Source: an uncultured Oscillospiraceae bacterium
GTDB taxonomy: Bacteria; Bacillota; Clostridia; Oscillospirales; Oscillospiraceae
Assembly (NCBI GenBank): GCA_947627715.1
Contig: CANQXK010000020.1
Location: 1 to 45,303 of the forward strand
Direction of reading: 5' to 3'
DNA: 45,303 nt
Part shown: positions 1,739 to 45,303 of the stretch, in pieces
How the letters are laid out: each line of letters starts with the position of its first letter
Position numbering within the stretch: the stretch's first letter is position 1
Notes under the pieces: generated by a model
What the model was told of the DNA's origin: nothing
The model's input: only the letters and a program-made list of their open reading frames with translations
The model's database searches: none
Translations under genes and position numbers: made by a program

Positions 1739-1817
1739 ACGCAAGACCTCCTTTACGGTGACAGCCTACCCCTTTTACCTTAAATGGACTTAAAACGAAA
1801 AGAAAATGCGACGCCTG

Positions 1818-1849
1818 TTCAATTTTTCTTCAATATTATATGGTATAAT
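1818..1849 (+). promoter_or_regulatory. Promoter with 11-bp-phased TTCAAT tandem box (two-component operon)
   Basis: TTCAAT occurs at 1818-1823 and again at 1829-1834, exactly 11 bp apart. It is followed by an extended -10 (TGG then TATAAT, 1844-1849). The pattern is that of OmpR/PhoB-family response regulator sites, where two direct half-sites replace the -35. The same arrangement precedes the VTC gene at 3922-3954. Autoregulation by the regulator at 1983 is inferred. Confidence 0.6.
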
Positions 1850-1928
1850 ATCCACAGAGCGGATAATATATTTGATTTCATGCCGTTTCGCTCCCGCCCG
1901 GTGGGCGGAACCGCGAAACATGGCGAAT

Positions 1929-1960
1929 ATACCATCCCCGCGTTGCGGGTATGGTATAAT
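1929..1960 (+). promoter_or_regulatory. Inverted repeat overlapping a second extended -10
   Basis: A 13-bp inverted repeat (1929-1941 and 1945-1957, one mismatch, 3-nt loop) overlaps a second extended -10, TGG TATAAT at 1955-1960, 23 bp before the response regulator start. No good -35 is present. It could be a repressor operator over a downstream promoter, or an RNA hairpin in the leader of transcripts starting near 1856. Confidence 0.45.
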
Positions 1961-1982
1961 GCTGATATAAGGGGGAATCAAA

Positions 1983-2666
1983 ATGAAGCTCTTGCTCGTA
2001 GAGGACGAGAAAAGGATGGCGCAGGCGCTTTGCGAGATCCTGCGGCTTGAAAAATACGACGTGGACTGGTGCGCCGACGGAATTACCGGGATGAATGCCG
2101 TGGAGAGCGGGATCTACGATCTTATCGTGCTGGACGTGATGCTTCCCGGTAAATCGGGCTATGAGATCGCGCGGCAGGCGCGGCATTTGGGGATAAAAGC
2201 GCCCATCCTGATGCTGACGGCCAAGGGCGAGCTTGACGACAAGGTGACGGGCCTTGACAGCGGCGCGGACGACTACCTGACAAAGCCCTTTGAGACGCGG
2301 GAGCTTCTGGCCAGGCTCCGCGCCCTGGGGAGAAGGAACCTCCCCTCCCCGGACGGCCAGCTGACCTTCGGGGATATATCTCTTGACACAAATGCGGTGT
2401 CGCTTCGATGCCTCACGAACGGACAGAGCGTGCGCCTCAGCGAGAAAGAGTACCACATTTTAGAATACCTGATGGCGAACCAGGGCCGCGTCCTGACGCG
2501 GGAGCAGCTGGCGGTGAAAATATGGGGCTATGAGAGCGACGCCGAGTACAACAACGTGGAGGTCTATATGTCCTTCACAAGGCGAAAGCTCACCTTCATC
2601 GGGGCGAAGACGGAAATAAAAGCCGTCCGGGGGATCGGATATGAATTGAGGTGCGAGGATGTTTAA
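1983..2666 (+). CDS. OmpR-family response regulator
   Basis: DNA-binding response regulator of 227 residues. The receiver domain (1-115) has the acidic pair E7/D8, phosphoacceptor D51 in VLDVMLPG, and the KPF motif in DDYLTKPF. The C-terminal winged helix (about 128-225) contains LSEKEYHILEYL and the end signature VRGIGYEL of the Trans_reg_C domain. It overlaps the sensor kinase gene by 8 nt, so the two form a cognate pair. The TTCAAT tandem boxes ahead of this gene and ahead of the VTC gene are the most likely targets, by inference. Confidence 0.95.
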   Translation: MKLLLVEDEKRMAQALCEILRLEKYDVDWCADGITGMNAVESGIYDLIVLDVMLPGKSGYEIARQARHLGIKAPILMLTAKGELDDKVTGLDSGADDYLTKPFETRELLARLRALGRRNLPSPDGQLTFGDISLDTNAVSLRCLTNGQSVRLSEKEYHILEYLMANQGRVLTREQLAVKIWGYESDAEYNNVEVYMSFTRRKLTFIGAKTEIKAVRGIGYELRCEDV

Positions 2667-3909
2667 AAAATCAAAACGGAAGATCGTGGCCGCCATCATG
2701 TCCGCTCTGGTTCTGCTCTTCCTGGGTACGCTGGCCGTGATCTACATATCCAGCTACCGCGAGGTGTCCTCCCGGAACCGGGATATGCTGGAGCGGTACG
2801 CCCAGCTCTATCCCCTGAATATCCGGGACCGCCAGGGAGAGACAACGAAGCCGGACGCGGCCCCGTCGCGCCGTCCCGACGGCCCCCGGTTCGAGGACAC
2901 GCCGGCCTTCCAGCTCTCCACCTTCTATTCGGTGGCGGTGTCAAAGGACGGCGGCGACCTTCTCTCCGTGGACAACAGCGGCCGGGAGATCTATACAGAC
3001 GAGGAGCTTGGGGAATACGCTTTGCAGATCGTGCAAAGCGGAAAAACCCGTGGGACCAAGGAGCGCCTCGTCTATGTGGCGGTGGACAAGGGCGGCTACA
3101 CGCTGGTGGCCTTTATGGACAACACCATCGTGCGGGACAGCATGACAACTCTGTTCCGCTATACCCTGATTTTTGGCGGCATGGCCATCGTTTTGCTGTT
3201 CTTTGTGGCGATTTTCCTTGCCAATCGGATCGTCCGCCCTCTGGAGGAGAGCTATCGGAAGCAAAAGCAGTTCATCTCCGACGCGGGCCACGAGCTGAAG
3301 ACCCCGGTCTCCGTGGTCAACGCCAACGCGGAACTGCTGAAGCGTGAGATCGGAGAGAATCGGTGGCTCAGTAACATCCAATATGAAAATGCCCGGATGG
3401 GGGCACTGGTCACGCAGCTTTTAGAGCTGGCCCGGACCGAGAACGTCACGCCGGAGATGGCGGAGGTGGAGCTTGGCCGGATCGTCATGGGGGAGGCGCT
3501 CCCCTTTGAAACGGTCATTTTTGAAAAGGGCGCGAAGCTTCAATGCGACGTGGCGGAGGATCTGCGCGTCGTGGGAAACGCCGCCCAGCTCAGCCAGCTC
3601 GTCTCCATCCTCTTAGACAACGCCATTCGACACAACATACCCGGAGGGACCATCCGTATCGAGCTGCGCCGGGAGAAGGCCCACGCGGTCCTGTCTGTCA
3701 GCAACGAGGGAGCGCCCATCCCCGCGGAACAGCAAAAGCTCCTCTTTGACCGCTTCTACCGGGCGGACGCGGCGCGGACAGGCGGAGATGGCCGCTATGG
3801 TCTGGGCCTTGCTATTGCCAAGGCCATTGTCGAGGCGCATCACGGGCAGATTTCGGTTTCCTGTCCTGACGGCCTCATCGTTTTTACCGCTGTGATGCCC
3901 GCTTCGTGA
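2659..3909 (+). CDS. Sensor histidine kinase (HisKA/HATPase_c)
   Basis: Membrane sensor kinase of 416 residues for the regulator encoded upstream. TM1 spans about residues 9-30. An extracytoplasmic sensor region (about 31-165) carries a charged Pro-rich stretch near 60-80. TM2 is about 168-188. A short HAMP-like linker (NRIVRPLEESY) leads to the H-box DAGHELKTPVSVV with H211, the N-box ILLDNAIRH, and a G-box GLGLAIAKAI. The sensory domain matches no family I recognise, so the stimulus is unknown. The next genes form an envelope cassette, which suggests an envelope or phosphate-related signal. A gap of 76 nt with its own promoter follows. Confidence 0.93.
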   Translation: MFKKSKRKIVAAIMSALVLLFLGTLAVIYISSYREVSSRNRDMLERYAQLYPLNIRDRQGETTKPDAAPSRRPDGPRFEDTPAFQLSTFYSVAVSKDGGDLLSVDNSGREIYTDEELGEYALQIVQSGKTRGTKERLVYVAVDKGGYTLVAFMDNTIVRDSMTTLFRYTLIFGGMAIVLLFFVAIFLANRIVRPLEESYRKQKQFISDAGHELKTPVSVVNANAELLKREIGENRWLSNIQYENARMGALVTQLLELARTENVTPEMAEVELGRIVMGEALPFETVIFEKGAKLQCDVAEDLRVVGNAAQLSQLVSILLDNAIRHNIPGGTIRIELRREKAHAVLSVSNEGAPIPAEQQKLLFDRFYRADAARTGGDGRYGLGLAIAKAIVEAHHGQISVSCPDGLIVFTAVMPAS

Positions 3910-3921
3910 ACTTTTTGTGAC

Positions 3922-3954
3922 TTCAACGTTCCTTCAATCTTTCCCCGGTACAAT
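3922..3954 (+). promoter_or_regulatory. Promoter with tandem TTCAAC/TTCAAT box (VTC operon)
   Basis: TTCAAC at 3922-3927 and TTCAAT at 3933-3938 are 11 bp apart. They precede a TACAAT -10 at 3949-3954, and no -35 hexamer is visible at normal spacing. This copies the layout at 1818-1849 (second repeat to -10: 16 bp here, 15 bp there). That is the expected architecture of an activator-dependent promoter of the OmpR/PhoB type. Confidence 0.6.
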
Positions 3955-3985
3955 GGCCCCAGCATAAACGAAGGAGGGTAAGCCG

Positions 3986-4657
3986 GTGGACTTTCGGCAT
4001 GAATGGAAAATCGAGATAAGCGCCGCCGACCTCTTGGCGGTGCGAAGCCGTCTCCGGGTCCTGATGGAGCCGGACGGGCACGCCGTAAACGGCAGGTATC
4101 TCATTCGCAGTCTCTATTTCGACACACCCACGGACAAGGCTCTGCGGGAGAAGCTGGACGGCGTGGACAGGCGGGAGAAATTTCGTATCCGCTATTATAA
4201 CGGCGACACCGATTTTTTGAGCCTGGAGAAAAAGAGCAAGCTGAACGGCCTTTCCAGTAAGGAGGCCGTACAGATCACGGCCGAGCAGGCGCGGGAAATC
4301 GCCGCCGGGAACATTCCGCAAATTCAAGAGGACGCGCCGCCGCTGTTGCGGGAGCTGTGCTATAAGATGCGGACCCAGGGCCTCCGCCCGAAGACCGTAG
4401 TGGATTACACGCGGGAGCCCTTTGTCTACCGCCCCGGCAACGTCCGGGTCACCTTCGATTACGGGATACGCACCGGCCTTATGTGTACCGATTTTCTAAA
4501 CCCGGAGCTTGTGACGGTCCCGGCGGGGGACGCGCCGATCCTGATGGAGGTCAAGTGGGACGCGTTTCTCCCAGACCTTATACGGGACGCTATCCAGCTT
4601 ACGGGCCGCCGGTCCGCCGCCTTCTCAAAATACGCCCAATGCCGTATTTACGGCTGA
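3986..4657 (+). CDS. VTC-domain protein (polyphosphate polymerase-like)
   Basis: 223-residue member of the VTC / polyphosphate polymerase domain family. In yeast VTC this fold (related to triphosphate tunnel enzymes) makes polyphosphate from ATP. The expected alternation of basic and acidic strands is visible: FRHEWKIEI, YLIRSLYFDT, REKFRIRYYN, FLSLEKKSK, VRVTFDYGIR and ILMEVKWD near the end, with K/R/E residues lining the presumed tunnel. The GTG start at 3986 has AGGAGGG at the right distance. It precedes a DUF4956 membrane protein, a pairing seen repeatedly in Gram-positive genomes. Whether the bacterial protein makes polyphosphate or another phosphate polymer is not shown by the sequence. 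Confidence 0.88.
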   Translation: MDFRHEWKIEISAADLLAVRSRLRVLMEPDGHAVNGRYLIRSLYFDTPTDKALREKLDGVDRREKFRIRYYNGDTDFLSLEKKSKLNGLSSKEAVQITAEQAREIAAGNIPQIQEDAPPLLRELCYKMRTQGLRPKTVVDYTREPFVYRPGNVRVTFDYGIRTGLMCTDFLNPELVTVPAGDAPILMEVKWDAFLPDLIRDAIQLTGRRSAAFSKYAQCRIYG

Positions 4658-4681
4658 TCCACTCGGAAAGGAAGAAAAACT

Positions 4682-5353
4682 ATGACATTCAACGATATTT
4701 TCAAATCCAGCTTTTTGGACAACGTCTCCAGCGTCAGCATCCTGGACATGGCCCTTGCGCTCATCCTGGCCTTTGGCCTTGGCGTCTTCATTTTCCTGAT
4801 CTATAAGAAAACCTACAACGGCGTCATGTATTCGTCTTCCTTTGGCGTTACATTGATTGCCCTCACCATGATCACCACCGTGGTTATCCTGGCCGTCACT
4901 TCCAACGTGGTGCTGTCTCTCGGCATGGTGGGCGCGCTGTCCATCGTCCGGTTCCGCACCGCCATCAAGGAGCCGCTGGATATCGCTTTCCTCTTCTGGT
5001 CCATCGCCGTGGGCATCGTCTTAGCGGCGGGCATGATTCCGCTGGCGGTGATCGGCAGCGTCATCATCGGCCTGATCCTCCTCTTTTTCGTCAACCGCAA
5101 GTCCCACACGAACCCCTATATCGTGGTGCTCCAGTGCGCCGGCTTTGAGAGCGAGCAGGCGGCCAGGGAGTTTCTTGAAAAGCGGACGGAGCGCTGCGTC
5201 GTCAAGAGCAAGACGGCGCAGAAGGGGAATGTGGAGCTGAATCTGGAGGTCCGCCTCAAGGACGACAACACGGATTTCATCAACGAACTCTCCGGCATGA
5301 GCGGCGTATCCAGCGCGGTTCTCGTGAGCTTTAACGGGGAGTACATGGGGTAA
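4682..5353 (+). CDS. DUF4956 membrane protein
   Basis: 223 residues. The N-terminal half has four predicted membrane helices (about 23-42, 55-78, 95-118, 120-138) with the family block SLGMVGALSIVRFRTAIKEP between the second and third. The C-terminal cytosolic domain of about 80 residues (YIVVLQCAGF onward) has an alternating strand/helix pattern like a ferredoxin-like fold. It lies 24 nt after the VTC gene and 11 nt before the beta-helix protein gene, so all three are probably one operon. A role as membrane partner or channel for the VTC product is inference; the family has no proven biochemistry that I know of. Confidence 0.88.
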   Translation: MTFNDIFKSSFLDNVSSVSILDMALALILAFGLGVFIFLIYKKTYNGVMYSSSFGVTLIALTMITTVVILAVTSNVVLSLGMVGALSIVRFRTAIKEPLDIAFLFWSIAVGIVLAAGMIPLAVIGSVIIGLILLFFVNRKSHTNPYIVVLQCAGFESEQAAREFLEKRTERCVVKSKTAQKGNVELNLEVRLKDDNTDFINELSGMSGVSSAVLVSFNGEYMG

Positions 5354-5364
5354 GGAGGCGCTTT

Positions 5365-7278
5365 ATGGCTGCGCATAAGCATATTGACGCCATTTGTATA
5401 GCAATCACCGTCTTCACCCTGCTCGTCACCGTCCTCTTTATGAACGGGAAGGCCCTGGGCATCACGGTCATGGCAGGTGAGGACGAAAGCGCCGGGATGT
5501 TCACGGAAAACGATCTGGAGGTTGCGTGGAACACGTCCAGCGCCACCAGGATTCGCCTTTCGGACGAGGGCAGTACGGTGAGCGGAAACGGCGCCTACGT
5601 CTATGAGGGCGACGTCCACATCGTGTACGCGGGAAAATATGTTCTCACCGGGGAGCTGTCCGACGGGTCCATCGTCATCGAGGCGGACGGGGACGACAAG
5701 ATATGGCTCATGTTGGACGGCGTCTCTATCCACTGTGAGGACGGCGCCGCCATACGGGTGGAGCAGGCGGAGAAGGTGTTCCTGACCCTGGCTGACGGCA
5801 CGGAGAATACCCTTTCCTCCGGCTCGTCCTACAGCGAGGACGCGGTTTCCTCAGGCGTGGACGGGACGGTCTACTCCAGAGACGATCTGACGATCAACGG
5901 AACCGGCGAACTGCGTGTAACCGCGGAGTATCAGCACGGCATCGTCTGCAACGACGACCTCGTGATCACCGGCGGCACACTGAATGTAACTGCCGCGCGG
6001 GACGCCGTTCACGCCAACGACAGCGTGCGTCTCTGCAACGCCAATCTCACGCTCTCCGCGGGCGACGACGGGATCACGGCCTCCAACGACGAGGGCATGT
6101 CCTTCATCTATGTGGAGTCGGGCGTCATCACGATCCCGAACTGCTATGAGGGGTTGGAGGCGATCCAAATCACCATAGCCGGGGGGACCATCGACATCGA
6201 CCCCACCGACGACGGGATCAACGCCAACGGGAACGGCGGCAATTCCCTCATCACCATCACCGGCGGGGACATCACCATCACCGACGACAACGGCAGGGAC
6301 GCGGATGGGATCGACTCCAACGGGGACATCGCCATCAGCGGCGGGAGGCTGTTCGTCAGCGTCAGCGACACCGGCGGGAGCTGCGCCATCGACTACGGAA
6401 GCGAAAGCGGCGGCAAATGCGTCATCACCGGCGGGACCGTCCTTGCCTGCGGGAGCAGCAGTATGGCGGAGAGCTTTGATTCATCCTCCACCCAGGGCTT
6501 CCTGATGCTGAATACTTCGGCGGCAGCCGGTACGACCGTAACAGTCAAGGACGCCGGCGGGAACGAACTCCTCTCGGAGGAGGTCCCCTGCAGCTTCTCC
6601 TCCGTTCTCGTCAGCACGCCGGACATGAAGGTGGGGGACACCTGCACGCTGATTGTCGGAGATACCGAGACGCAAATGACCATCGATAATGCTTCCAGCG
6701 GCGGCTTCGGCGGCTTTGGCGGCGGACGGATGCCCGGCGGAAACGGCTTCGGCGGCGGAAAGATGCCGGGCCGGGGCGGTTTCGGCAGGGACGAAGGGAC
6801 GCCTGACAGCGGCGTGGCCGGCGAGACGCCAGACAGCGAAAACACACCAAATGGCAGTGAGCTGTCGGCGGCCGATGCCGCGCCGGCGGTCAGCCTATTG
6901 AGCGCCGGTGATTCTGAAAGTGAACCTGGCGATCTGCCAAACGAAGGCGAGACGCCTTCGGATTTCCCCTGGAGCGGAAGAGACGGCGGCACATTGCCGG
7001 AGTTCCCGGAGGGCGGTATGCCTGATTTTTCACAAAACGGAGATAACAGCGACACACCTCAGTCGGGTATCACTCCCGGCAGCGGGATCTTTGGAGGACG
7101 TCAAAACGGAGGAACCATGCGCGGCCCCAACTGGAATACGCAGGGCCAGGACAGCGTTTCTCAACCGGCAGGAGAGGAAACCCATATCTCAGCGGAATCC
7201 CTCATCCTTCTTGCCGTTTCCGCCGTTGTCCTCCTGATAGGCTGCGCCCTCGCCGCCTGCTATAAGCGGAGGGGATAA
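5365..7278 (+). CDS. Surface beta-helix protein, Cthe_2159-like carbohydrate-binding domain
   Basis: 637 residues. An N-terminal hydrophobic segment (about 12-32) serves as signal or anchor. Residues about 50-440 form a right-handed beta-helix-like array of short repeats rich in Asn, Asp, Gly and Ile (ITGGTLNVTAARDAVHAND, IDIDPTDDGINANG, ITGGDITITDDNG), characteristic of the Cthe_2159 cellulose/pectin-binding family. A low-complexity Gly/Ser/Pro/Asp/Glu spacer (about 445-605) follows, then a C-terminal membrane helix with a KRRG end, so the protein spans the wall and is membrane anchored. The repeated Asp-rich turns may bind calcium. There is no LPXTG motif. It is co-transcribed with the VTC and DUF4956 genes. 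Whether it binds polysaccharide here is inferred from the family only. Confidence 0.85.
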   Translation: MAAHKHIDAICIAITVFTLLVTVLFMNGKALGITVMAGEDESAGMFTENDLEVAWNTSSATRIRLSDEGSTVSGNGAYVYEGDVHIVYAGKYVLTGELSDGSIVIEADGDDKIWLMLDGVSIHCEDGAAIRVEQAEKVFLTLADGTENTLSSGSSYSEDAVSSGVDGTVYSRDDLTINGTGELRVTAEYQHGIVCNDDLVITGGTLNVTAARDAVHANDSVRLCNANLTLSAGDDGITASNDEGMSFIYVESGVITIPNCYEGLEAIQITIAGGTIDIDPTDDGINANGNGGNSLITITGGDITITDDNGRDADGIDSNGDIAISGGRLFVSVSDTGGSCAIDYGSESGGKCVITGGTVLACGSSSMAESFDSSSTQGFLMLNTSAAAGTTVTVKDAGGNELLSEEVPCSFSSVLVSTPDMKVGDTCTLIVGDTETQMTIDNASSGGFGGFGGGRMPGGNGFGGGKMPGRGGFGRDEGTPDSGVAGETPDSENTPNGSELSAADAAPAVSLLSAGDSESEPGDLPNEGETPSDFPWSGRDGGTLPEFPEGGMPDFSQNGDNSDTPQSGITPGSGIFGGRQNGGTMRGPNWNTQGQDSVSQPAGEETHISAESLILLAVSAVVLLIGCALAACYKRRG

Positions 7279-7727
7279 GGTAGCCCCCTGATTGAGGCTT
7301 TACCCTCCGGCAGCCGCTTTTGTCAAAAGAGAGATTACGATTCGATACGATTTGCCTCTCAACAGGAAGAGAAGGAATATCGTGAGAGATTCATCTGTTG
7401 GTATGTGAAAGCAAAACAGGTTTCTTTCTGTACAGGAGTCTTCATAAGCACAGCAAAAAGACGCAGCTGGAATTCCAACTGCGTCTTTTTTGCTGTGCCA
7501 TACCGTCTCGCCCCCGGCTCACTTCGTTTCCCAATCCCACGGGGCACATGAGCCTTGGGAAACTCCCCCGCACGTTCCCCTTGTCGAAAAAGCCCGTCAG
7601 GGATTTTTTTGTTGTGGGAAAAAAGGATTGAGCTTTGCAGTCCACGTGGGGGCAATCGGATCGGAAGGACCGCCTGAGAGGCGGCCCTTATATTTTAAAT
7701 AAATTTTCTTAAAATGGAAAATTACTA
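7279..7727. other. Non-coding stretch with a long terminator palindrome
   Basis: About 450 bases without a convincing gene. The short open frames here have no ribosome binding site and follow the palindrome. It holds the large hairpin at 7448-7498 and a weaker GC hairpin (CCGCC/GGCGG) near 7670-7685, followed by an AT-rich tract that leads into the next promoter. Confidence 0.6.
7448..7498. terminator. Bidirectional terminator / long palindrome
   Basis: A near-perfect palindrome of about 51 bp. Arms at 7448-7466 and 7479-7498 pair over 19 bp with one bulged T, and the centre is itself palindromic (TGGAATTCCA). An A5 run lies in the left arm and a T6 run in the right arm. It lies about 170 nt after the beta-helix gene and can end transcription from either side. 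It also has the form of an interspersed palindromic repeat. Confidence 0.6.
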
Positions 7728-7756
7728 TTGACTTTAATAATATTCAAGTCTATAAT
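7728..7756 (+). promoter_or_regulatory. Sigma-A promoter for the DUF2089 operon
   Basis: TTGACT at 7728-7733, a 17-bp spacer and a perfect TATAAT at 7751-7756. It lies 26 nt upstream of the DUF2089 start codon, so the leader is short. Confidence 0.82.
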
Positions 7757-7781
7757 CAATATTGTTAAAGGAGGCGGTCAA

Positions 7782-8075
7782 ATGGAGATACTGCCCGGTT
7801 GGATGTCGGAGCTGGACGAGGGGGACATGACGTTTATCAAGCGGTTCCTGCTGGCCTCCGGCTCCCTGAAGGAGATGGCCAGGGAATACGGCGTCACCTA
7901 CCCCACCGTCCGCTTGCGGCTGGACAGGCTCATTCAGAAGATTCAAATGGCGGACAGCGCTGAGAGCGAACCCTATGTGGCCCTGATCAAGCGGCTGGCG
8001 CTGGATGACCGGCTGGATTTCGATACGGCCAAGCTGCTCATCAGCGAGTACAAGAAAGGAAAAGGAGGAAACTGA
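7782..8075 (+). CDS. DUF2089-family regulator
   Basis: 97-residue protein (MEILPGWMSELDEGD...). The central part reads FLLASGSLKEMAREYGVTYPTVR, a helix-turn-helix-like segment characteristic of DUF2089 proteins and resembling the sigma region 4 / UPF0122 type. The ATG at 7782 has GGAGG 7 nt upstream; the in-frame ATG at 7728 lies inside the -35 and is rejected. The stop is 1 nt before the next start, so it is tightly coupled to a membrane protein. DUF2089 proteins commonly sit beside small membrane proteins, suggesting a DNA-binding/membrane regulator pair (inference). Confidence 0.82.
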   Translation: MEILPGWMSELDEGDMTFIKRFLLASGSLKEMAREYGVTYPTVRLRLDRLIQKIQMADSAESEPYVALIKRLALDDRLDFDTAKLLISEYKKGKGGN

Positions 8076-8076
8076 T

Positions 8077-8505
8077 ATGGTAAATTTAGAGATCAGAAAT
8101 CTGGTGGCTCTGCTTTTTATCATCGCCCTTTTTGCCGGAACCATCGTCTTACAGGTTTACCTGTCCCGCCGGGAGGGACGCTGGCCGGGGCTTGTGCTGC
8201 CCATTTTGTCCTTTGTCATTGCGCTGACGGCGGCGCTGGCGGTGGGGGTGGCGAACAGTTACACCGGCACAGGCAAGCTGACGGTAACAGAGGTAAACAG
8301 CGACGGTACGGTGACCACCCAGACCACGCCTGTGGAGCCGGGGGAGGACGAACACGGGATCGGCGAGGCCCTGATCAGAGGCGTGATCGTATTTCTTACC
8401 GCCAATATCCCCACCGTTATCTATACGGCTATCTACTTTGGCGAGCGGGAAAAATTCCGCCGCCGGGAGCAGATGAAGAAGATGAATATTCAGGATCTGG
8501 AATAA
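8077..8505 (+). CDS. Small membrane protein paired with DUF2089
   Basis: 142 residues, no family recognised. Three hydrophobic helices are visible: about 8-27 (LVALLFIIALFAGTIVLQVYL), 36-56 (LVLPILSFVIALTAALAVGV) and about 102-122 (GVIVFLTANIPTVIYTAIYF). A polar loop of about 40 residues with many Thr and Glu separates the second and third, probably outside the cell. The C-terminus is charged (REKFRRREQMKKMNIQDLE). It starts 1 nt after the DUF2089 stop. It could be a membrane anchor or antagonist for that regulator; this is context only. Confidence 0.75.
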   Translation: MVNLEIRNLVALLFIIALFAGTIVLQVYLSRREGRWPGLVLPILSFVIALTAALAVGVANSYTGTGKLTVTEVNSDGTVTTQTTPVEPGEDEHGIGEALIRGVIVFLTANIPTVIYTAIYFGEREKFRRREQMKKMNIQDLE

Positions 8506-8522
8506 TCCAAAGCTTACGCGCC

Positions 8523-8554
8523 CGCAGGGGCCGATGTAATCATCGGCCCCTGCG
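8523..8554. terminator. Hairpin between convergent genes
   Basis: Perfect 14-bp inverted repeat (8523-8536 and 8541-8554, loop TAAT), 17 nt after the membrane protein gene and before the end of the convergent glycosyltransferase gene. No T-run follows on either strand, so termination may depend on stem strength. Confidence 0.55.
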
Positions 8555-8603
8555 CCGCACTGCTGGATTCCCTATACGGACCTCCAGATTCCCGAAAATC
8601 TGT

Positions 8604-9842
8604 TCATGTCAGGTCCCGGATGGACAGATTCACCTTGTGTTCGATGGGCTTCCACTCCACCTTTCGGAAGATGGCGGCGATGGAGATGGGGATGTAGGTC
8701 ATCATGAAGAAGGGGAAGGTCAGGGTGTAGAGGACCTTTTTGGCGGCGGGGGTGTGGATGTGCCGCCACTCCTTTACGGTGGTCACGCCGCCGATGAAGA
8801 GCATAAAGAGGTAGGTGCCGAGGATGGACTGGAGCGTGGGGGCCGCCAGCTGCCACGCCGTGCCGCCGGAGAGCAGCGCCAGGACGGAGGCGGCGGTGTT
8901 GACCGCAAAGCCCACGGAGGCCAGAATGATGGCCGGCATAATGGACATCACCATGTCGAAGCAGGAGAAGCTCCCGTGGGCGGCCCCGGAGAGAAGGCGG
9001 CCTCCGTACATACGGAACACCTGCAAAAAGCCCCTGGACCAGCGCATCCTCTGCCGCCAGGACTGGCTGAATTTCACCGGCTGCTCGTCGAAAAGCTCCG
9101 CGTCGGGGGCGTAGCCGATCCTGTCCCCCCGGACCATGCAGTCCGCCGTGAACTCCGTGTCCTCGGTGAGAGAGTGGAAGGGCCAGCCGCCGTTCCGGGC
9201 GATGATCTCCCGGCTCACCAAAAACCCCGTCCCGGACACCACGGCGCTGGAGCCGAGGAGGGCGCGGGGGTGGTTGAGAAACTCCGCGTCCCGCAAAAAC
9301 CACAGGGCGTACCCGGCGGAGATCCAGTTGTCGCCGAAGTTTTTGGAGTTGCGGTAGCTGGTGACGATGGGGTGTCCGTCGGAGAACATCCGGTTCATGG
9401 CGGTTATGTATCCGGGGGAGAGGAGGTTGTCCGCGTCAAAGACGAGGTAGGCGTCAAAAACGTCCCCGCGCTCCACCTCGATGCGCCGGAGAAGAAAATC
9501 CAGGGCGTAGCCCTTGCCCACGCGCTCACGGTCGAACCGCTCATAGACCGTGGCCCCGGCGCGGCGGGCGGCCAGGGCGGTCCCGTCGGTGCAGTTGTCC
9601 GCCGCCACAAAGACGCTGACCAGCTCCGAGGGGTAGTCCTGCCCCTTGATGGACTCGATGAGGTTGCCGATGACCGCCTCCTCGTTGCGGGCGGCGATGA
9701 GTACCGCGTAGCGGTGCAGGACCTCCGGCGCGTGGGGCCTGTCCCTTTTGAAAAGGGGGATCAGCAGATACACCAGCTGATAGAAATAGCAGGCGAAGAA
9801 GAGAATGGATATGACGGTGTTGACTGCCTTGAGATAGAACAT
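8604..9842 (-). CDS. Membrane glycosyltransferase, family 2 (processive type)
   Basis: 412 residues. An N-terminal helix (about 5-30) is followed by a GT2 catalytic domain: VLIAARNEE at the nucleotide-binding start, D136xD138 in VFDADN for sugar-nucleotide and metal, LTEDTEF (E227, D228) and QRMRW (264-268), the set that marks BcsA/hyaluronan-synthase-like polymerising enzymes. Three or four C-terminal helices follow (about 290-395). It would extend a polysaccharide from the inner face of the membrane. It is shorter than BcsA and has no PilZ domain. The start ATG at 9842 has GGGAGG upstream, embedded in a structured leader. It lies downstream of the thioesterase gene but with a 134-nt gap. 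Confidence 0.87.
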   Translation of the reverse strand: MFYLKAVNTVISILFFACYFYQLVYLLIPLFKRDRPHAPEVLHRYAVLIAARNEEAVIGNLIESIKGQDYPSELVSVFVAADNCTDGTALAARRAGATVYERFDRERVGKGYALDFLLRRIEVERGDVFDAYLVFDADNLLSPGYITAMNRMFSDGHPIVTSYRNSKNFGDNWISAGYALWFLRDAEFLNHPRALLGSSAVVSGTGFLVSREIIARNGGWPFHSLTEDTEFTADCMVRGDRIGYAPDAELFDEQPVKFSQSWRQRMRWSRGFLQVFRMYGGRLLSGAAHGSFSCFDMVMSIMPAIILASVGFAVNTAASVLALLSGGTAWQLAAPTLQSILGTYLFMLFIGGVTTVKEWRHIHTPAAKKVLYTLTFPFFMMTYIPISIAAIFRKVEWKPIEHKVNLSIRDLT

Positions 9843-36697: not shown

Positions 36698-37357
36698 ATG
36701 AAATACAGGATCTCCGCCAATGTCATACGAAGACTGCCCCGCTATTTGCGGCGCTTTACCCTTCTTGACCGGCAGAATGTGGAGAAGATCTCCTCCTCGG
36801 CGCTGGGCGAGCAGATGGGTCTTAAGGCCTCCCAGATAAGGCAGGACTTCAACTGCTTTGGCGGATTCGGCCAGCAGGGCTACGGCTATAATGTAAAACA
36901 GCTCAGGGACGACGTGGGCGGTATCCTGGGACTGGACAGGACCCTCACCGCTGTCGTTATCGGCGCGGGCAACCTGGGCAGGGCGCTGATCTCCAACTTT
37001 GACTTTGCGTCCTGCGGCGTAAAGCTCATCGCCGCCTTTGATACCTCCAGGGCGATCGTGGGGACGAGCCTTCACGGGACGCCTATCCTTGACGCGGCGG
37101 AGCTGGAGAGCTTTTTGGAGGAGAACCGCGTGGATGTGGCCGTGCTGACCATGCCGAGATCCGCCACAGCCGGAACGGCACGGTTGCTGGCAGGGCGCGG
37201 CGTGCGGGGCCTTTGGAATTTCACGGGAGTGGACATAGACGCCGATCTGGGGGACGTGCTGGTGGAGGACGTACACCTCTCCGACAGCCTGCTCACCCTG
37301 GGGTACTATCTGCGTGGGAAAACGGAACAGCAGCCGGACGGCGCGGACAACGTCTGA
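36698..37357 (+). CDS. rex: Redox-sensing transcriptional repressor Rex
   Basis: 219 residues. The N-terminal winged helix (ISANVIRRLPRYLRRFTLLD, then LGEQMGLKASQIRQDFNCFGGFGQQGYGY) is diagnostic for Rex. The Rossmann domain has VVIGAGNLGRAL for NADH/NAD+ binding. The C-terminal helix (LVEDVHLSDSLLTLGYYL) is domain swapped in Rex dimers. It senses the NADH/NAD+ ratio and represses fermentation genes. GGAG lies 9 nt before the ATG. Divergent to the NAD-biosynthesis gene nadA, a suggestive pairing. Confidence 0.96.
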   Translation: MKYRISANVIRRLPRYLRRFTLLDRQNVEKISSSALGEQMGLKASQIRQDFNCFGGFGQQGYGYNVKQLRDDVGGILGLDRTLTAVVIGAGNLGRALISNFDFASCGVKLIAAFDTSRAIVGTSLHGTPILDAAELESFLEENRVDVAVLTMPRSATAGTARLLAGRGVRGLWNFTGVDIDADLGDVLVEDVHLSDSLLTLGYYLRGKTEQQPDGADNV

Positions 37358-37385
37358 GGAACGCCGCGGCGCGGGAGGTGGAGCG

Positions 37386-38438
37386 ATGAAAAAGTTCATA
37401 ACGGCGGCCCTGACGGCGGCGCTTCTGGCGGCGCTCAGCGGGACCCTGGCCGGAGAGGCGGGGACGGCGTCCGACCCCCTGATCACAAAGGAATACGCCG
37501 GGGAGTACGGCCAAGGCCTGCGCTCCAGTTGGGAGGAGAAGGCGGACGCCGCTTTGGAGCCAGTGTACGATATGTTCGCGTCCCGCTTTGACAAGGGCGA
37601 GACCAACTACAGCTGGACCTCCGGGCAGGAGCATTTCTTCCTCGCTTCCGGCGGGAGCTTCAACGCCGGGCTTGGCTGCGGCGTCACGGTCCTCTCCGGC
37701 GCGGTGAAGGTCACCTATTCCTCCGGGAGCGTCATTGACATCGCCGCAGGGAGCGTGGTCCCCTCCGGGACGGCGCTCACGGCGGGGAGAAGATATTTCT
37801 GCGCCGAGGAGACCGCTGCGGTGTTTGCCGCCTCCTCCGACAGCGCGCTGATGGTGGACGGTCCGTATAAGCCCGTCTCCGGGATGGAGCGGCGCGACCC
37901 CGTGCCCCCGGTCAGGCCCTATGACGACGTGGCTCCGGGGACGTGGTATGAACCCGGCGCGCTTTTCGCCCAGGAGAAGATGCTGTACCGGGACTACGAC
38001 GCAAGGCTCTTCCGCCCGGAGGACAAGCTGACGCGGGTGGAGCTTGCGTACGCGGTGTGGATGGCCTGCGGCTCGCCGGAGTCGAGCTATCAGGTCGCCT
38101 ATGTGGATCAGCCGGAGGCGTTCTATCTGCCCGCCGTCAACTGGTGCGCCGAGAAGGGCATCATGAAGGGCACGGGCGACAACTTCTTCGGCACCAACGA
38201 CCCGCTGAACCGGGTGACGGTGGTGGAGGTGCTGTTCCGCCTGGCGGGGGGAAGCGGCCGCGACGACCTGAGCCGGTTCACGGACGCCAATCAGGTGCCC
38301 GATTGGGCGCAGGAGTCCATGAGCTGGAGCGTCGCCAATCAGATCGTGCTGGGCCTGGACGAGCGGACCCTGGCGCCCCTGGCCGCCATCAACCGGGCGC
38401 AGGTGGCCCTGCTCCTCCAGCGGATGGACCTCTCATAA
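37386..38438 (+). CDS. Secreted protein with three SLH domains
   Basis: 350 residues. A signal peptide (MKKFITAALTAALLAALSGTLAG) is followed by a region of about 150 residues with Gly/Ser-rich strands (LGCGVTVLSGAVKVTYSSGS) and no recognised domain. Three S-layer homology repeats follow: YDDVAPGTWYEPGALFAQEKML, the YLPAVNWCAEKGIMKGTGDNFF repeat, and WAQESMSWSVANQIVLGL. SLH domains attach proteins to pyruvylated wall polymer. The ATG at 37386 has GGAG upstream and starts the signal peptide. It follows rex by 28 nt and may be co-transcribed, though no functional link is obvious. Confidence 0.87.
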   Translation: MKKFITAALTAALLAALSGTLAGEAGTASDPLITKEYAGEYGQGLRSSWEEKADAALEPVYDMFASRFDKGETNYSWTSGQEHFFLASGGSFNAGLGCGVTVLSGAVKVTYSSGSVIDIAAGSVVPSGTALTAGRRYFCAEETAAVFAASSDSALMVDGPYKPVSGMERRDPVPPVRPYDDVAPGTWYEPGALFAQEKMLYRDYDARLFRPEDKLTRVELAYAVWMACGSPESSYQVAYVDQPEAFYLPAVNWCAEKGIMKGTGDNFFGTNDPLNRVTVVEVLFRLAGGSGRDDLSRFTDANQVPDWAQESMSWSVANQIVLGLDERTLAPLAAINRAQVALLLQRMDLS

Positions 38439-38526: not shown

Positions 38527-40464
<1,938 letters not shown>

Positions 40465-40472
<8 letters not shown>

Positions 40473-40851
40473 TGAGTACCTCCCTTTTTTTCTTGGATAT
40501 TCTTGCGACTTTTCCTTCCCATTTGGTTTCTTCTTTCAAGCGCCCTCTGAGTGCGTCGTTCACCTGTGCCATGCCCGCATGAAGCTCTGCGATGTCCTCG
40601 GCATAGAAATTGCCGGTGGTCTTCATGCGGTAGGCGATCTGGTTGATGTTGCTGCCGATTTTGCTCACTGCGGCACACAGCTTTCTCAGCTCGGTGTAGT
40701 CCACGTTGATGATGTATCCGTCGATCAGCATCTTGCGGGCATACGATCCGAAATTGTGCGTCCCAAGCTCTGCCATCTTGGATTTGATGATCTGTTCCTC
40801 CTGTTCGGTCAGGCAGATTTCCTTGCGAATTGGTCTTACTCTGTTTGCCAT
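40465..40851 (-). CDS. mobC: MobC-like relaxosome protein
   Basis: 128 residues. MANRVRPIRKEICLTEQEEQIIKSKM, a ribbon-helix-helix-like N-terminus, is followed by the MobC block GSYARKMLIDGYI and ELRKLCAAVSKIGSNINQIAYRM. MobC assists strand opening at oriT for mobilisation. AGGAGG lies 8 nt before the ATG at 40851; the upstream in-frame ATG at 40917 is rejected. Normally a relaxase gene overlaps its end; here TnpW and the recombinase follow instead. Confidence 0.85.
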
Positions 40852-40917
40852 GTTCGATTCCTCCTTTGGCTGGCAATAGGTTTTCAGGTGAGAGGGTATT
40901 TCCTCACTATACAACAT

Positions 40918-41294: not shown

Positions 41295-43697
41295 TTACTT
41301 TGTAATTTGAATGAGTTCGATCCCTTCACTTTTTCCGAGATTACGGCTATACAGCTTTTCCGTGGAGTTGCACCAATGCTCATGGACGCCCAGGTTCGTG
41401 ACGGTGTGCCCCTGACTGTCCGTGTAGACGGTGCCGGAGGGGGCATTGGCGATGAGTCCCGCCTCGTGGAGGTAATTTTCCACGTTAGGGTTGTTCCGCA
41501 GAGCGCTGTTGTGCTCCGTCACGGCGGGCTCGTTCATCAGAAAATCCGCACCCACACTGTCAATGGCCACCGGGTCCTGAGAGGCAAACACGCTTGATGT
41601 GTAATCCCCGTTAAAGGGTGCCTGCTGCCATCTGGAATTGCTTCCAGTGATGGAGGCCCCCTCGCTGGGGGCGCAAATCAAGGCGTCCAGCATATACAGC
41701 ACCGTTTTACCGCCAAGGTCGGCGTTTGCCATCAGATCAACAAGAGGGCTGTAAATACCCATCTCGTTTCGGGTGAGCCATTGATGAAGGTTTGCGCCCT
41801 CCGGCGGGCGCATGGTGTTACCGTTGATAAACGAACCGAAGTGATTTTTCCCGCAGAGCGTAATGCCGTAACTATGGCCTTTGAGGTTAGCAAGGTTGAT
41901 GATATAAGTCGCTTCGGTTACACAGGTTGGAAGGTAGTTGACCTTGCCGCTGAATTCATGCGACCAGACAATGGAGGCGGACTCGTCCGCCACGCCGGTG
42001 TCCCGGTCCACAAAGCGGACGCCTCTCAATTCTCCCTCAGTACACATCTCTACCATATAGTCCGGGAAGAGCCGGGACACGTCATAGACGGTGATGTTCT
42101 CCGGCGCGACACCGGCTTCCTCTACCAGTGATGTGAGCAGAGCTTTCAGCAGAACGGGGTTCGTGTAGCTCATTTTCGTTTCGCCGGAGGTGTCATCGTC
42201 ATAGACGGCGGAGCCGTTGATGTTGGCTTTGATCGCTATTTTTTCGCCCGCTTTATACCCGCCAGTTCTTCCGCGGGCGTTGTTATTCGCGGTAAACAGC
42301 GCCGCCCAGCCATCCCGTGCGGTCTCCTTCCCACCGAGCGCGGCGACGGAGTCATTGACCATATTCAAGATAACGCTCTCGTCGAAGTGGTCAAGCTCCC
42401 ACCAATAGCCGTTCCCGTCCCAGTCCACACTGTCCGGGTCGTAGGTCCAGACCACCCGCCCCGGCATGGCACCGACGCCTGTTCCGTATGGTTCATGCTG
42501 TGGATAAATCCCGTCGTAAGGCAATGTGGACACCTCATTCTTCTCTATTATTTCAAGACTCTCAAGCCATGCCTGTATTTCCGATTCGGAGGTTCCTGCC
42601 GCAAAGCGCGTACCGTCCAGCCAATTTGCGTTCGGAGCAAGAGAGTGAAGATTGCTTGCACTGGAACCAATCCCGCTGGAATGAGAGGTGCAGAAGGGGA
42701 CGATGGTTTTCCCGGCAAAATCGTAGCTTTCCAGGAAAGTATAAATTATTTTGGGACCCTGGCCGTGCCAGATGGGGTAGCCCAGGAACACGATATCGTA
42801 ATTTTCCATGTCCTCCATACTACCCGCAATGGCGGGCCGCGCGGCGGGGTCGGCCTGTTCCTGATCCGCCCTACCGCCACTGTAATAGTCAAGGTCAGCC
42901 TCTGTATAGGGGACTTCCGGGACGATTTCAAAGAGGTCGGCACTCAGATAGTCCGCGATCTCTATTGCCACGCTTTCGGTGGTATTGGTACAGGAGAAAT
43001 AGGCCACCAGGATTTTCGCGTTTTGCGGATTGGTAGTCTGACGACGGAAGAAGTTATACAAAATCATCGCCGCCTCCGCTCTTGTGGTATTGGCCTTGGG
43101 ATCGAAGCGGTTTCCGCCCTTCCCACTTATAATGCCGTTTTCTCTTGCCCATTTTACCGCGTCCTTCGCCCATGGAGAGATTATGCTTTCATCCACAAAG
43201 GCATCGGTTGTACCGCTTGCCGGCGAATCAGCATAGCGCCAAAGGACGGCAGCAAACTGCTCTCGAGTCACTGGGTCGTCTACGCCGAAGGTTCCACCGC
43301 CATATCCCTCCATCAGTTTTTCCGACGCCGCCCAGCGCACAGCCTCGGTGTACCAACTGCCTGTTGGTACATCGGAGAAATCCATCAGGAAATCCACCAA
43401 TGGTGCATTCTCCATCCGCCAGAGAACCGTAGCCAGCATTGCGCGGGACATGGTGCCGTTGGGGGAAAATTCAGTCTCGGATACGCCGCTCATGATCCCG
43501 TTCTCCCGACACCAGGCCACCGCCTCGGCATACCAGGCATCGGTGGGAACATCCGTAAAACTGTCCTGTGTTGATGTGCTGCTCAGCGGGACAGCATTTG
43601 CCGTTTGTTCTTCCGCTCCGCCGATCCCTGCCGCTGTCCCGCAGGCAACGCAGAAAAGCGCCAAGCAGAAGGCCAGTAAAAACGCTATTCTTTTCAT
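41295..43697 (-). CDS. Secreted SLH-flavodoxin-DUF362 fusion protein
   Basis: 800 residues. The signal sequence ends at FCVAC (Cys19), a plausible but atypical lipobox. Three SLH repeats lie at about 46-95, 106-155 and 167-215 (each with a DVPT or similar start, WYAEAV-like helix and TRAEAAM-like end). Next is a flavodoxin_4-type domain (226-382) with the FMN phosphate loop YFSCTNTTESVA and FLGYPIWHGQGP. A DUF362 domain fills about 414-790 (KAGEKIAIKANINGS, NLANLKGHSYGITLCGKNHF, SSVFASQDPVAIDSVGAD). No CxxCxxC ferredoxin motif is present, unlike many DUF362 proteins. The protein should sit on the cell surface. It is third in an operon, 14 nt after the hydrolase gene. A redox role is inferred; the substrate is unknown. 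Confidence 0.85.
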   Translation of the reverse strand: MKRIAFLLAFCLALFCVACGTAAGIGGAEEQTANAVPLSSTSTQDSFTDVPTDAWYAEAVAWCRENGIMSGVSETEFSPNGTMSRAMLATVLWRMENAPLVDFLMDFSDVPTGSWYTEAVRWAASEKLMEGYGGGTFGVDDPVTREQFAAVLWRYADSPASGTTDAFVDESIISPWAKDAVKWARENGIISGKGGNRFDPKANTTRAEAAMILYNFFRRQTTNPQNAKILVAYFSCTNTTESVAIEIADYLSADLFEIVPEVPYTEADLDYYSGGRADQEQADPAARPAIAGSMEDMENYDIVFLGYPIWHGQGPKIIYTFLESYDFAGKTIVPFCTSHSSGIGSSASNLHSLAPNANWLDGTRFAAGTSESEIQAWLESLEIIEKNEVSTLPYDGIYPQHEPYGTGVGAMPGRVVWTYDPDSVDWDGNGYWWELDHFDESVILNMVNDSVAALGGKETARDGWAALFTANNNARGRTGGYKAGEKIAIKANINGSAVYDDDTSGETKMSYTNPVLLKALLTSLVEEAGVAPENITVYDVSRLFPDYMVEMCTEGELRGVRFVDRDTGVADESASIVWSHEFSGKVNYLPTCVTEATYIINLANLKGHSYGITLCGKNHFGSFINGNTMRPPEGANLHQWLTRNEMGIYSPLVDLMANADLGGKTVLYMLDALICAPSEGASITGSNSRWQQAPFNGDYTSSVFASQDPVAIDSVGADFLMNEPAVTEHNSALRNNPNVENYLHEAGLIANAPSGTVYTDSQGHTVTNLGVHEHWCNSTEKLYSRNLGKSEGIELIQITK

Positions 43698-43711: not shown

Positions 43712-44725
43712 TTATGCCCCGAGATACTTGCGGAAGAAATCCGTCAGCTTGTCAAAGGGGATAGCGCCCTTCCCTCCGCCGTCATATAGATTGGTGTGGA
43801 CGGCGTCTGGGATGATAAGCAGTTCTTTGTTGTCCGTGTACCTGCTGTCCTTTATCATGGCCGCGTAGGCGTCCTTTGAGAAGTAGCAGGAGTGCGCTCT
43901 TTCACCGTGCATGATCAAAACGGCGCTTCTGATTTCATTGCTGTATTTGAGAATCGGCTGATTGAGGAAGGATTCACAGCCGATCACATTCCAGCCGCCG
44001 TTGGAGTTGAGGCTGCGGGGATGGTAGCCGCGCTGGGTCTTATAGTAATCGTAATAATCCTTTACGAAGAACGGCGCGTCCTCCGGCAGAGGATCAACTA
44101 CACCGCCGCCGAGGGCGTAATCTCCCGCTTTCAAGTCCGCAAGCCTCTGTGCGCACATGGCCGCCTTTTTCTGATAGCGGGCTTCCTCGCTGTCCTCCGC
44201 GTCAAAATACCCCTTGGCGTTTACCCTCGTCATGTCGTACATAGTGGAGGCGACGGTCGCTTTTACTCTCGTGTCCAGCGCCGCCGTGTTCAGCGCCATG
44301 CCGCCCCAGCCGCAGATGCCGATAATACCGATTCGGTCGGGGTCGGCCTTCTCGTGCAGCGACAGGAAATCCACCGCCGCCATAAAGTCCTCGGTGTTGA
44401 TGTCGGGGGACGCCATGTAACGGACATTTCCTCCGCTCTCGCCGGTAAAGGAGGGGTCAAAGGCAATCGTCAGAAATCCACGCTCCGCCATGGTCTGGGC
44501 ATAGAGCCCCGCCGCCTGCTCCTTCACCGCTCCGAACGGGCCGCAAACGGCAATCGCCGGAAGCTTGCCCTCCACATTTTTCGGCACATACAAATCCGCC
44601 GCCAACGTGATGCCATAACGGTTCACGAAGGTGACTTTGCTGTGGTCCACCTTCCCGCTCTTTGGGAAGGTTTTATCCCACTGCGCCGTCAGTTTCAGTT
44701 CTTCCTTTTTCATGATGTTTGCCAT
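43712..44725 (-). CDS. Alpha/beta-hydrolase-fold protein (YcjY/dienelactone-hydrolase-like)
   Basis: 337 residues, no signal peptide, so cytosolic. It has the oxyanion strand AIAVCGPFGAVKEQ, GESGG and the elbow RIGIIGICGWGGMALN (about 131-146). In close relatives that I recall the elbow is CGSGG with Ser; here Trp occupies that place and Cys138 is the only nearby nucleophile. A late His lies in IPDAVHTNLYD and an acid in HGERAHSCYFSKDAY. Activity is therefore uncertain. The start at 44725 touches its AAAGG; the ATG at 44713 is an alternative. It lies 7 nt after the small helical gene and 14 nt before the SLH-flavodoxin gene. Confidence 0.82.
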   Translation of the reverse strand: MANIMKKEELKLTAQWDKTFPKSGKVDHSKVTFVNRYGITLAADLYVPKNVEGKLPAIAVCGPFGAVKEQAAGLYAQTMAERGFLTIAFDPSFTGESGGNVRYMASPDINTEDFMAAVDFLSLHEKADPDRIGIIGICGWGGMALNTAALDTRVKATVASTMYDMTRVNAKGYFDAEDSEEARYQKKAAMCAQRLADLKAGDYALGGGVVDPLPEDAPFFVKDYYDYYKTQRGYHPRSLNSNGGWNVIGCESFLNQPILKYSNEIRSAVLIMHGERAHSCYFSKDAYAAMIKDSRYTDNKELLIIPDAVHTNLYDGGGKGAIPFDKLTDFFRKYLGA

Positions 44726-44732
44726 CCTTTCG

Positions 44733-44960
44733 TTATTTCATTGATTGTTTTTCAGTCTTCCGTATCAGATAATCTATAAGGTCTACCCGCTGTTGGCTTT
44801 CGTGCATCCGGTCAAGCAGACCGCAGCGGCATTGCTTGAGGAATTTTGTAAGCTCTCTCATGTTGCCCGTTTGTAAGATACGCTCGGCTTTCACAATTTC
44901 CTCCGCTTTGCATCCCGCGTCGGCCATCCCCGTGAGCAGATTTTCCGTTTGTTCGCTCAT
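44733..44960 (-). CDS. Small helical protein at the head of the flavodoxin operon
   Basis: 75 residues, no family recognised. All-helical with MADAGCKAEEIVKAERILQTG and LTKFLKQCRCGLLDRMHESQQRVDLIDYLIRKTE. It contains three Cys, two of them as CRC. The ATG at 44960 has AAAGGATGAG upstream; the longer frame runs back through the lysR promoter and is rejected. It may be a regulatory or binding partner for the hydrolase, whose start is 7 nt downstream. Confidence 0.65.
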   Translation of the reverse strand: MSEQTENLLTGMADAGCKAEEIVKAERILQTGNMRELTKFLKQCRCGLLDRMHESQQRVDLIDYLIRKTEKQSMK

Positions 44961-44998: not shown

Positions 44999-45076
44999 AG
45001 TGTAGCACGTTGACATATTTCTCGCTAATGGTTATAATGAATATCATGATATTCTCTTGGCAAATATCATGATATT
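44999..45076. promoter_or_regulatory. Divergent promoter region with two identical palindromes
   Basis: Plus strand: TTGACA (45010-45015), 17-bp spacer, TATAAT (45033-45038), perfect consensus, toward lysR. Minus strand: a TACACT -10 (45004-44999) toward the hydrolase operon, with a poor -35. The 14-bp palindrome AATATCATGATATT occurs at 45040-45053 and 45063-45076, covering the lysR start-site region. Probable LysR regulator sites. Confidence 0.75.
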
Positions 45077-45093
45077 GAACGGAGGATAACAAT

Positions 45094-45303
45094 ATGGAAA
45101 TTCGTACTTTAAGATACTTCCTTGCCATTGCAAGAGAAGAAAACATGACCAAAGCCGCGGAGATTCTGCACGTTACGCAGCCCACTCTTTCCAAGACGCT
45201 GCGAGCATTAGAGGACGAGCTGGGGGAAAAGCTGTTTACACGGCACAGCTTCAGTATTTCGCTGACCGAGGAAGGAATCCTTCTAAGAAAGCGGGCGGAA
45301 GAT
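45094..45303 (+). CDS. LysR-family transcriptional regulator (cut by window edge)
   Basis: The first 70 residues, MEIRTLRYFLAIAREENMTK then AAEILHVTQPTLSKTLRALE and the GEKLFTRHS wing region, are a complete LysR helix-turn-helix domain. The effector domain lies beyond the window. GGAGG lies 8 nt before the ATG. Divergent to the small helical protein, hydrolase and SLH-flavodoxin-DUF362 operon, which it probably controls through the two palindromes. Confidence 0.93.
   Translation, partial: MEIRTLRYFLAIAREENMTKAAEILHVTQPTLSKTLRALEDELGEKLFTRHSFSISLTEEGILLRKRAED

Follow-up and report, generated by a model that had tools for sequence, protein, structure and literature searches.

The window analysed here, a stretch of 45,303 nucleotides from an uncultured Oscillospiraceae bacterium that probably lives in the gut, carries on its reverse strand an operon in which a gene for a small protein of 75 amino acids (ORF at 44733..44960) is followed after a 7-bp gap by a gene for an alpha/beta hydrolase of the S15/DLH-like type (43712..44725; ORF and Pfam) and, 14 bp further on, by the last gene (41295..43697), whose product joins three SLH repeats, a Flavodoxin_4 domain and a DUF362 domain. 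No Pfam family scored above its cut-off with the small protein. Upstream, a divergent gene for a LysR-type regulator starts on the forward strand, and its N-terminal part (45094..45303; HTH_1, E 1.5e-22) lies within the window before the gene runs off the end. Between the regulator and the operon, motif search located two copies of the palindrome AATATCATGATATT, 23 bp apart at 45040..45053 and 45063..45076 (no strand assigned), against 0.04 matches expected when up to two mismatches are allowed, and these twin palindromes are likely to be the LysR operator. Just downstream of the operon (38527-40917) are genes for a serine recombinase with a DUF4368 domain and for a MobC/NikA-like protein, which make up a mobilizable element. 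Another SLH protein, with two SLH stretches and a start resembling a signal, is encoded at 37314-38438, downstream of a Rex-like regulator, and its N-terminal part gave no Pfam match.

The main gene is a single intact frame of 800 residues starting with ATG, as the preliminary description of this DNA had stated, and all three domain types assigned in that description scored above the curated Pfam cut-offs: SLH in three stretches (E 1.9e-40), Flavodoxin_4 (PF12682) at residues 228-380 (E 7.9e-51; 172 bits against a cut-off of 24), and DUF362 (PF04015) at residues 488-718 (E 1.5e-13; 51.7 bits against a cut-off of 24). The flavodoxin subfamily NF005501 of NCBIfam was narrowly missed (195.6 bits against the required 198), and the DUF362 part indeed has no ferredoxin CxxCxxC motif. 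Five relatives share its domain order. The DNA of two of them, L052 and L043, aligns with the last 4 kb or so of the window, beginning where the DUF362 gene ends, in single alignments running through all domain junctions (89.2% identity over 4136 bases and 87.0% over 4032 bases, respectively); the other three with this order are L061, L063 and L089, the last of which lies on a 585-kb scaffold of Acutalibacter sp. 1XD8-36. In the comparison with L043, the dN/dS values were 0.124/0.83 (about 0.15) for the SLH part, 0.101/0.44 (about 0.23) for the flavodoxin and 0.040/0.57 (about 0.07) for DUF362. The frame is a real, conserved gene. Literature searches among open-licence PMC papers found none on the SLH-flavodoxin-DUF362 order, in agreement with the earlier remark that no described system of this architecture was known.

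The predicted signal sequence (residues 1-19; 43641..43697, reverse strand), recognised by eye and with a hydrophobicity rule and already pointed out in the preliminary description, is hydrophobic and ends FCVAC↓G with a lipobox-like Cys19. Since the residue at position -3 is also Cys, this is not a textbook lipobox, and lipidation of Cys19 is therefore likely but not certain. Under loose rules, the survey of family N-termini detected a hydrophobic segment in 79 of 81 frames, the other two being frames that miss their start, and a lipobox-like Cys in 66 of 81. The three SLH repeats (residues 43-222; 43032..43571, reverse strand) form the putative anchor module, for which the nearest solved chains are Sap SLH domains (6bt4, E 2.8e-13). 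The wall ligand to which SLH domains bind is produced by CsaB, and a CsaB match above the cut-off is present in the window's own genome. The signal, the repeats and CsaB together support, as a prediction, display of the protein on the cell surface, where the preliminary description had placed it. Among the 19 DUF362 carriers tested, CsaB was found in all three that have SLH versions; four carriers had no CsaB match over the cut-off (one weak match in G458) and no SLH version either, and 12 had CsaB (split in two and under the cut-off in G733) though no SLH version, so that tracking of CsaB by the SLH module is consistent with these data but not significant.

A scan of named genomes yielded at least 550 relatives of the DUF362 core, and in the 80 loci kept from these the core of about 410 residues is 73-93% identical. 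The 80 loci belong to Oscillospiraceae, Lachnospiraceae, other Clostridia and two Treponema, mostly as MAGs, and genome titles such as Lapin and iMGMC, together with the genus names, suggest gut bacteria. Modules were counted in the 80 frames and in the window protein with profiles built in this work. DUF362 stands alone in 39 of these 81 proteins; it follows a flavodoxin in 13, precedes a cyclophilin-like module in 12, comes third after SLH and flavodoxin in six (the window protein and the five relatives named above), precedes a flavodoxin in five, follows SLH directly in four, and is combined once each as cyclophilin-DUF362 and DUF362-cyclophilin-cyclophilin. Flavodoxin_4 is thus fused in 24 of the 81, ahead of DUF362 in 19 and behind it in five, and the fusion must therefore have arisen at least twice. 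Cyclophilin-like modules, which are not known as redox carriers, occur in 14 of the 81, and no protein among the 81 has both module types. Pfam applied to 74 proteins (L033 and L089 being one gene, and eight of the 80 loci being left out) agreed with these counts: DUF362 in 74, Flavodoxin_4 in 24, Cyclophil_like2 in 14, SLH in 11 and dockerin in two.

In a tree built from 76 DUF362 domains, which omits the long or truncated L098, L111, L116, L119 and L120, the presence of flavodoxin changes at least 15 times and that of SLH at least 10 times, as gains or losses. A single-clade origin of the six SLH-flavodoxin-DUF362 proteins, a group defined before this tree was made but after a quick tree of all 81, was rejected (p-AU 5e-68). 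The constant part of the family is DUF362, with flavodoxin and SLH as optional modules, and because these are optional on a conserved exported core, the three-domain fusion would not be the unit of function. In L098 (389-3619), a frame of 1077 amino acids places a CspB prodomain and a subtilase (12-315) ahead of flavodoxin-DUF362, by either a true fusion or an assembly fault. In L030 (818-2730, the same gene as L049), the flavodoxin is split over two overlapping frames ahead of an intact DUF362.

The surroundings of the gene recur among its relatives. According to tblastn counts, the hydrolase lies directly upstream in 38 of the 68 relatives whose upstream DNA extends for 1.3 kb or more; for the 56 with at least 3 kb, the divergent LysR was found in 46, LysR and hydrolase together in 31, and a similar small protein in 21. 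Of the 56 relatives in which a LysR start was located, seven have the pair of palindromes at equal spacing, in some cases with changed centres, and 17 have one or more ATATC-GATAT sites. A labelled redox gene occurs in the flanks of 11 of the 39 module-less loci, a count made over flanks of unequal length with many unlabelled genes; L096 would be the twelfth. In this locus (951-9230), the hydrolase and exported DUF362 genes enclose, on one strand, genes for two HGD-D proteins, a Fer4 protein predicted to have a membrane part, a BadF-type ATPase and a DsbD-like protein, a cluster by which low-potential electrons might be led out of the cell.

Within the order, the DUF362 part was found in seven of 394 genomes, one being the window's own; the other six carriers lie in three other families (in G506 just a fragment is present, where the contig ends), and the order search listed three further species of the window's genus, all of which lack it. 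In the class, 15 of 391 genomes contain it, again including the window's own, with a distant match in G562 (E 4e-84) and a match in pieces in G900. The GC content of the main gene and the hydrolase gene is 55-56%, compared with 59% in positions 1-35000 of the window, and this difference together with the patchy distribution over families makes transfer between families likely. From the window's own family, 200 genomes were sampled and five candidates scored per genome, and among the matches listed only the SLH and flavodoxin parts were present. Ten of these frames were scanned for domains: SLH-flavodoxin is followed by an aldo/keto reductase in L009, L010, L011, L014 and L015 (in L015 with a cyclophilin-like domain in between), by a cyclophilin-like domain in L017 and L018, and by a second flavodoxin in L024 and in L016, which the contig end cuts short; L022 is a flavodoxin-reductase without SLH. 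On contig C33 of the window's own genome (L040, 4732-9018; L157, 462-2496), a lipoprotein-like DUF362 of another type is clustered with an ArsP_1 permease, a DUF4405 protein, aldo/keto reductases and a free Flavodoxin_4, and an SLH-flavodoxin frame in this cluster stops ahead of its reductase part; the DUF4405 gene has the lipoprotein-like DUF362 gene and a broken SLH-flavodoxin/aldo-keto reductase pair as neighbours.

The exported DUF362 core (residues 389-800; 41298..42533, reverse strand) was delimited from Pfam, family profiles, alignment and a structure model. Many of its residues are invariant over 74 aligned rows (73 of the 80 loci plus the window), and in these rows the motif LKGHSYGITLCGKNHFG shows little or no variation. 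The family alignment and comparison with other DUF362 proteins define the core motif LKGHSYGITLCGKNHFGSF (residues 605-623; 41829..41885, reverse strand), whose His608 and Lys617 the cytosolic DUF362 proteins in this comparison likewise have; K490, H608, K617, G621 and S706 are common to other DUF362 proteins (ten sequences, two of them ferredoxin-bearing). The model of residues 391-800 has a mean pLDDT of 81 and a pTM of 0.89, with pLDDT below 50 in the motif region (218-256 of the core model), as might be expected, at a guess, of a site awaiting its cofactor. A sequence search found no solved relative of the core. Several DUF362 kin bear ferredoxin domains, and the window's own genome encodes such a protein (L149), which lacks a signal and has a C-terminal 4Fe-4S dicluster domain; our reading is that in this bacterium DUF362 would have a ferredoxin-type partner inside the cell and a flavodoxin partner outside. 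COG2006 corresponds to DUF362. An oxidation-reduction role has been guessed for COG2006 from a network (PMC4510573), and Fer4 motifs nested in DUF362, of clan CL0471, have been noted (PMC7955657); the portions of the literature searched held predictions alone and no tested DUF362 activity. PMC12423673 was discarded as DUF362 literature, its matches being to DUF3623.

With a little less than even confidence, we favour the explanation that the operon encodes a LysR-controlled surface oxidoreductase with DUF362 as its catalytic core and flavodoxin as an optional electron module; the electron transfer, catalysis and substrate of the protein are what we infer, as is the extracellular redox step proposed in the preliminary description. 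The protein would be secreted and tied to the membrane by the Cys19 lipid and/or to the wall by the SLH repeats; DUF362 (residues 389-800) would perform catalysis, and the flavodoxin would hold FMN non-covalently and pass electrons to or from it, in parallel with the probable role of the ferredoxin domains in cytosolic DUF362 proteins. LysR, acting at the twin palindromes, would induce the operon, and the hydrolase would act on the small molecule handled by DUF362, an ester or carbonyl compound, perhaps plant-derived; the dockerin-bearing kin hint at plant-derived substrates. Several lineages have a flavodoxin fused in front of DUF362 or behind it, and this, together with the cytosolic kin that carry ferredoxin, is the strongest support for a surface oxidoreductase. 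It is also favoured because SLH-flavodoxin is joined to another oxidoreductase, the aldo/keto reductase, in the same bacterial family, and because the hydrolase and DUF362 genes of L096 enclose HGD-D, Fer4, BadF-type and DsbD-like genes. The strongest doubt arises because 39 of the 81 proteins have no module, only 11 of these 39 with a labelled redox neighbour, and because a cyclophilin-like domain takes the place of the flavodoxin.

The same module-less proteins and cyclophilin-like replacements count in favour of an exported non-redox enzyme of the LarA clan (metal racemase, epimerase or lyase), in which the flavodoxin or cyclophilin-like modules would only bind substrate or aid folding, and which we regard as unlikely though worth serious consideration. 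LarC is needed for the nickel-pincer cofactor of LarA. It was found in one of seven carrier genomes, G375, which favours such an enzyme, as the second SLH-flavodoxin-DUF362 protein of the order-level set is encoded by this genome; LarC (PF01969) had no match in the other six, including the window's own genome, which is 99.6% complete. The DUF362-ferredoxin protein L147 matches Lar_N over its motif (E 2.8e-5), and DUF362 and LarA are placed in one Pfam clan in the accessible part of PMC11770544. However, hhalign of the exported core against LarA-like proteins gave 1.2%, between the controls of 0.6% and 2.6%, as against 31.8% for other DUF362 proteins, and the ferredoxin domains on several DUF362 kin also argue against a non-redox enzyme. 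A nickel-pincer enzyme of the LarA type in particular is disfavoured for the window's genome. This genome does encode a Lar_N-family protein (L174; G000 C4:3657-4250) though it has no LarC match.

The Flavodoxin_4 module (residues 227-381; 42555..43019, reverse strand) was delimited by Pfam, structure matches, family profiles and loop alignment. Its nearest solved chains are 3klb, 4ici and 4j8p; the closest is 3klb (E 5.4e-43), with 75 of 155 aligned residues identical (48%). Alignment with 3klb and 4ici confirmed the FMN phosphate loop that had been assigned to the domain at the outset, SCTNTT (residues 235-240; 42978..42995, reverse strand), a variant of SxTGxT; the phosphate-loop Ser and Thr, the GYPxW loop and the PFxTS loop are all kept. 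The ApbE flavinylation motif was searched with the strict pattern Dxx[ST]xA[ST]; it is present in none of the 24 flavodoxin-DUF362 fusions, the window protein included, and matched elsewhere in three other proteins (L067, L073 and L114). ApbE itself was found in 10 of 10 genomes tried, the window's own among them. DUF4405 is present in four of the 10, with one gene in the window's own genome; as only three of seven carrier genomes have it, DUF4405 as an obligatory electron donor is not supported.

The absence of the ApbE motif, which sets the 24 fusions apart from published extracytosolic flavodoxins, means that FMN may be lost outside the cell. The module could then be apo there, Sec export being an unfolding step and free FMN scarce, and serve as a spacer or binding domain; the replacement of WW in the second loop of 3klb and 4ici by WHG in 19 of 22 fused copies aligned would also fit such a role, which we nevertheless judge quite improbable. 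Against it stand the retained loops, the dN/dS of about 0.23, and the non-covalent FMN reported for 3klb (PMC11334425, seen in part), so that FMN binding outside the cell may be supposed. Candidates for wall-anchored flavinylated flavodoxins are the SLH-Flavodoxin_4 frames of the window's family with ApbE-type motifs (DAITSAT, DAVSGAT and similar), found in five of 13 such frames (L009-L021): L009 at residues 476-482, L017 at 212-218, L018 at 244-250, L019 at 213-219 and L021 at 134-140.

The preliminary description had also suggested electron transfer to a surface acceptor, and the protein might then be an electron conduit of a general kind, as in extracellular respiration. The predicted wall placement, the ApbE in every genome tried and the DUF4405 gene of the window's own genome agree with this; but an operon with LysR and a hydrolase is of the substrate type, the constant part of the family is the DUF362 core rather than the flavodoxin, and the distribution is patchy, with six carriers besides the window's own genome among 394 of the order, all of which makes a conduit very unlikely. 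An assembly fusion of separate genes, named in the preliminary description as one finding that would overturn it and conceivable for a draft genome of 100 contigs, has practically no chance of being correct, because L052 and L043 are colinear over the junctions at 89.2% and 87.0% DNA identity and the identical order is repeated in three further loci.

Taken further, the favoured surface oxidoreductase might represent a new class of surface redox enzyme, in which an exported DUF362 has flavodoxin with non-covalent FMN fused on or off at either end, the anchor is exchanged to match the wall of each host, and a LysR-hydrolase operon directed at a specific gut molecule has spread between gut families; in this full form the proposal is a doubtful one, though not far-fetched. 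Two of its elements have been published before, namely Flavodoxin_4 outside the cytosol (PMC11334425) and modular DUF362 of a secreted type (PMC5742341). A conserved exported DUF362 branch with a conserved operon and a flavodoxin at either end offers a defined entry to DUF362 function, and with this family one can also test if an extracellular flavodoxin is able to function when its flavin is not covalently fixed.

The preliminary description had remarked that flavodoxins normally work in the cytosol; the presence of one outside it is not itself without precedent, since Huang et al. (2024) described extracytosolic Flavodoxin_4 proteins that are flavinylated by ApbE and often co-encoded with DUF4405 membrane cytochromes (PMC11334425, in the part accessible). 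What appears in PMC5898192 as an "extracellular flavodoxin" is unrelated, being a flavodoxin-like domain within a membrane protein from archaea. The published ApbE-flavinylated proteins likewise lie outside the cytosol in Firmicutes, and the window's own genome has both ApbE and DUF4405, but the DUF362 fusions have no flavinylation motif (0 of 24), and the window flavodoxin is fused to SLH and DUF362 and sits in a LysR-hydrolase operon. The Bacteroides flavoprotein 3klb shares the domain and the FMN loops with the window flavodoxin, whereas the solved chain is a single domain of 162 residues with WW in the loop where the window protein has WH. In the SLH-Flavodoxin_4-aldo/keto reductase proteins L009, L010, L011 and L014, anchor and flavodoxin are 49-55% identical to those of the window protein over 343-390 residues, but the C-terminal enzyme is an aldo/keto reductase instead of DUF362, and L009 has the flavinylation motif. 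Cytosolic DUF362-ferredoxin proteins such as L149 have K490, H608 and K617 in common with the window core, and differ in that L149 has no signal and carries a 4Fe-4S dicluster where the window protein has a flavodoxin. With the nickel-pincer lactate racemase LarA, the core shares the Pfam clan (PMC11770544, in part), but it gave no significant profile match, and its own genome gave no LarC match. Finally, the DUF362-CBM9-dockerin proteins from beaver and moose gut enrichments, as presented in the part of PMC5742341 available, are likewise modular DUF362 proteins of a secreted type, and a dockerin was also found in two of the 74 family proteins scanned here; likened by architecture alone, they carry a carbohydrate-binding module and a dockerin where the window protein has SLH repeats and a flavodoxin.
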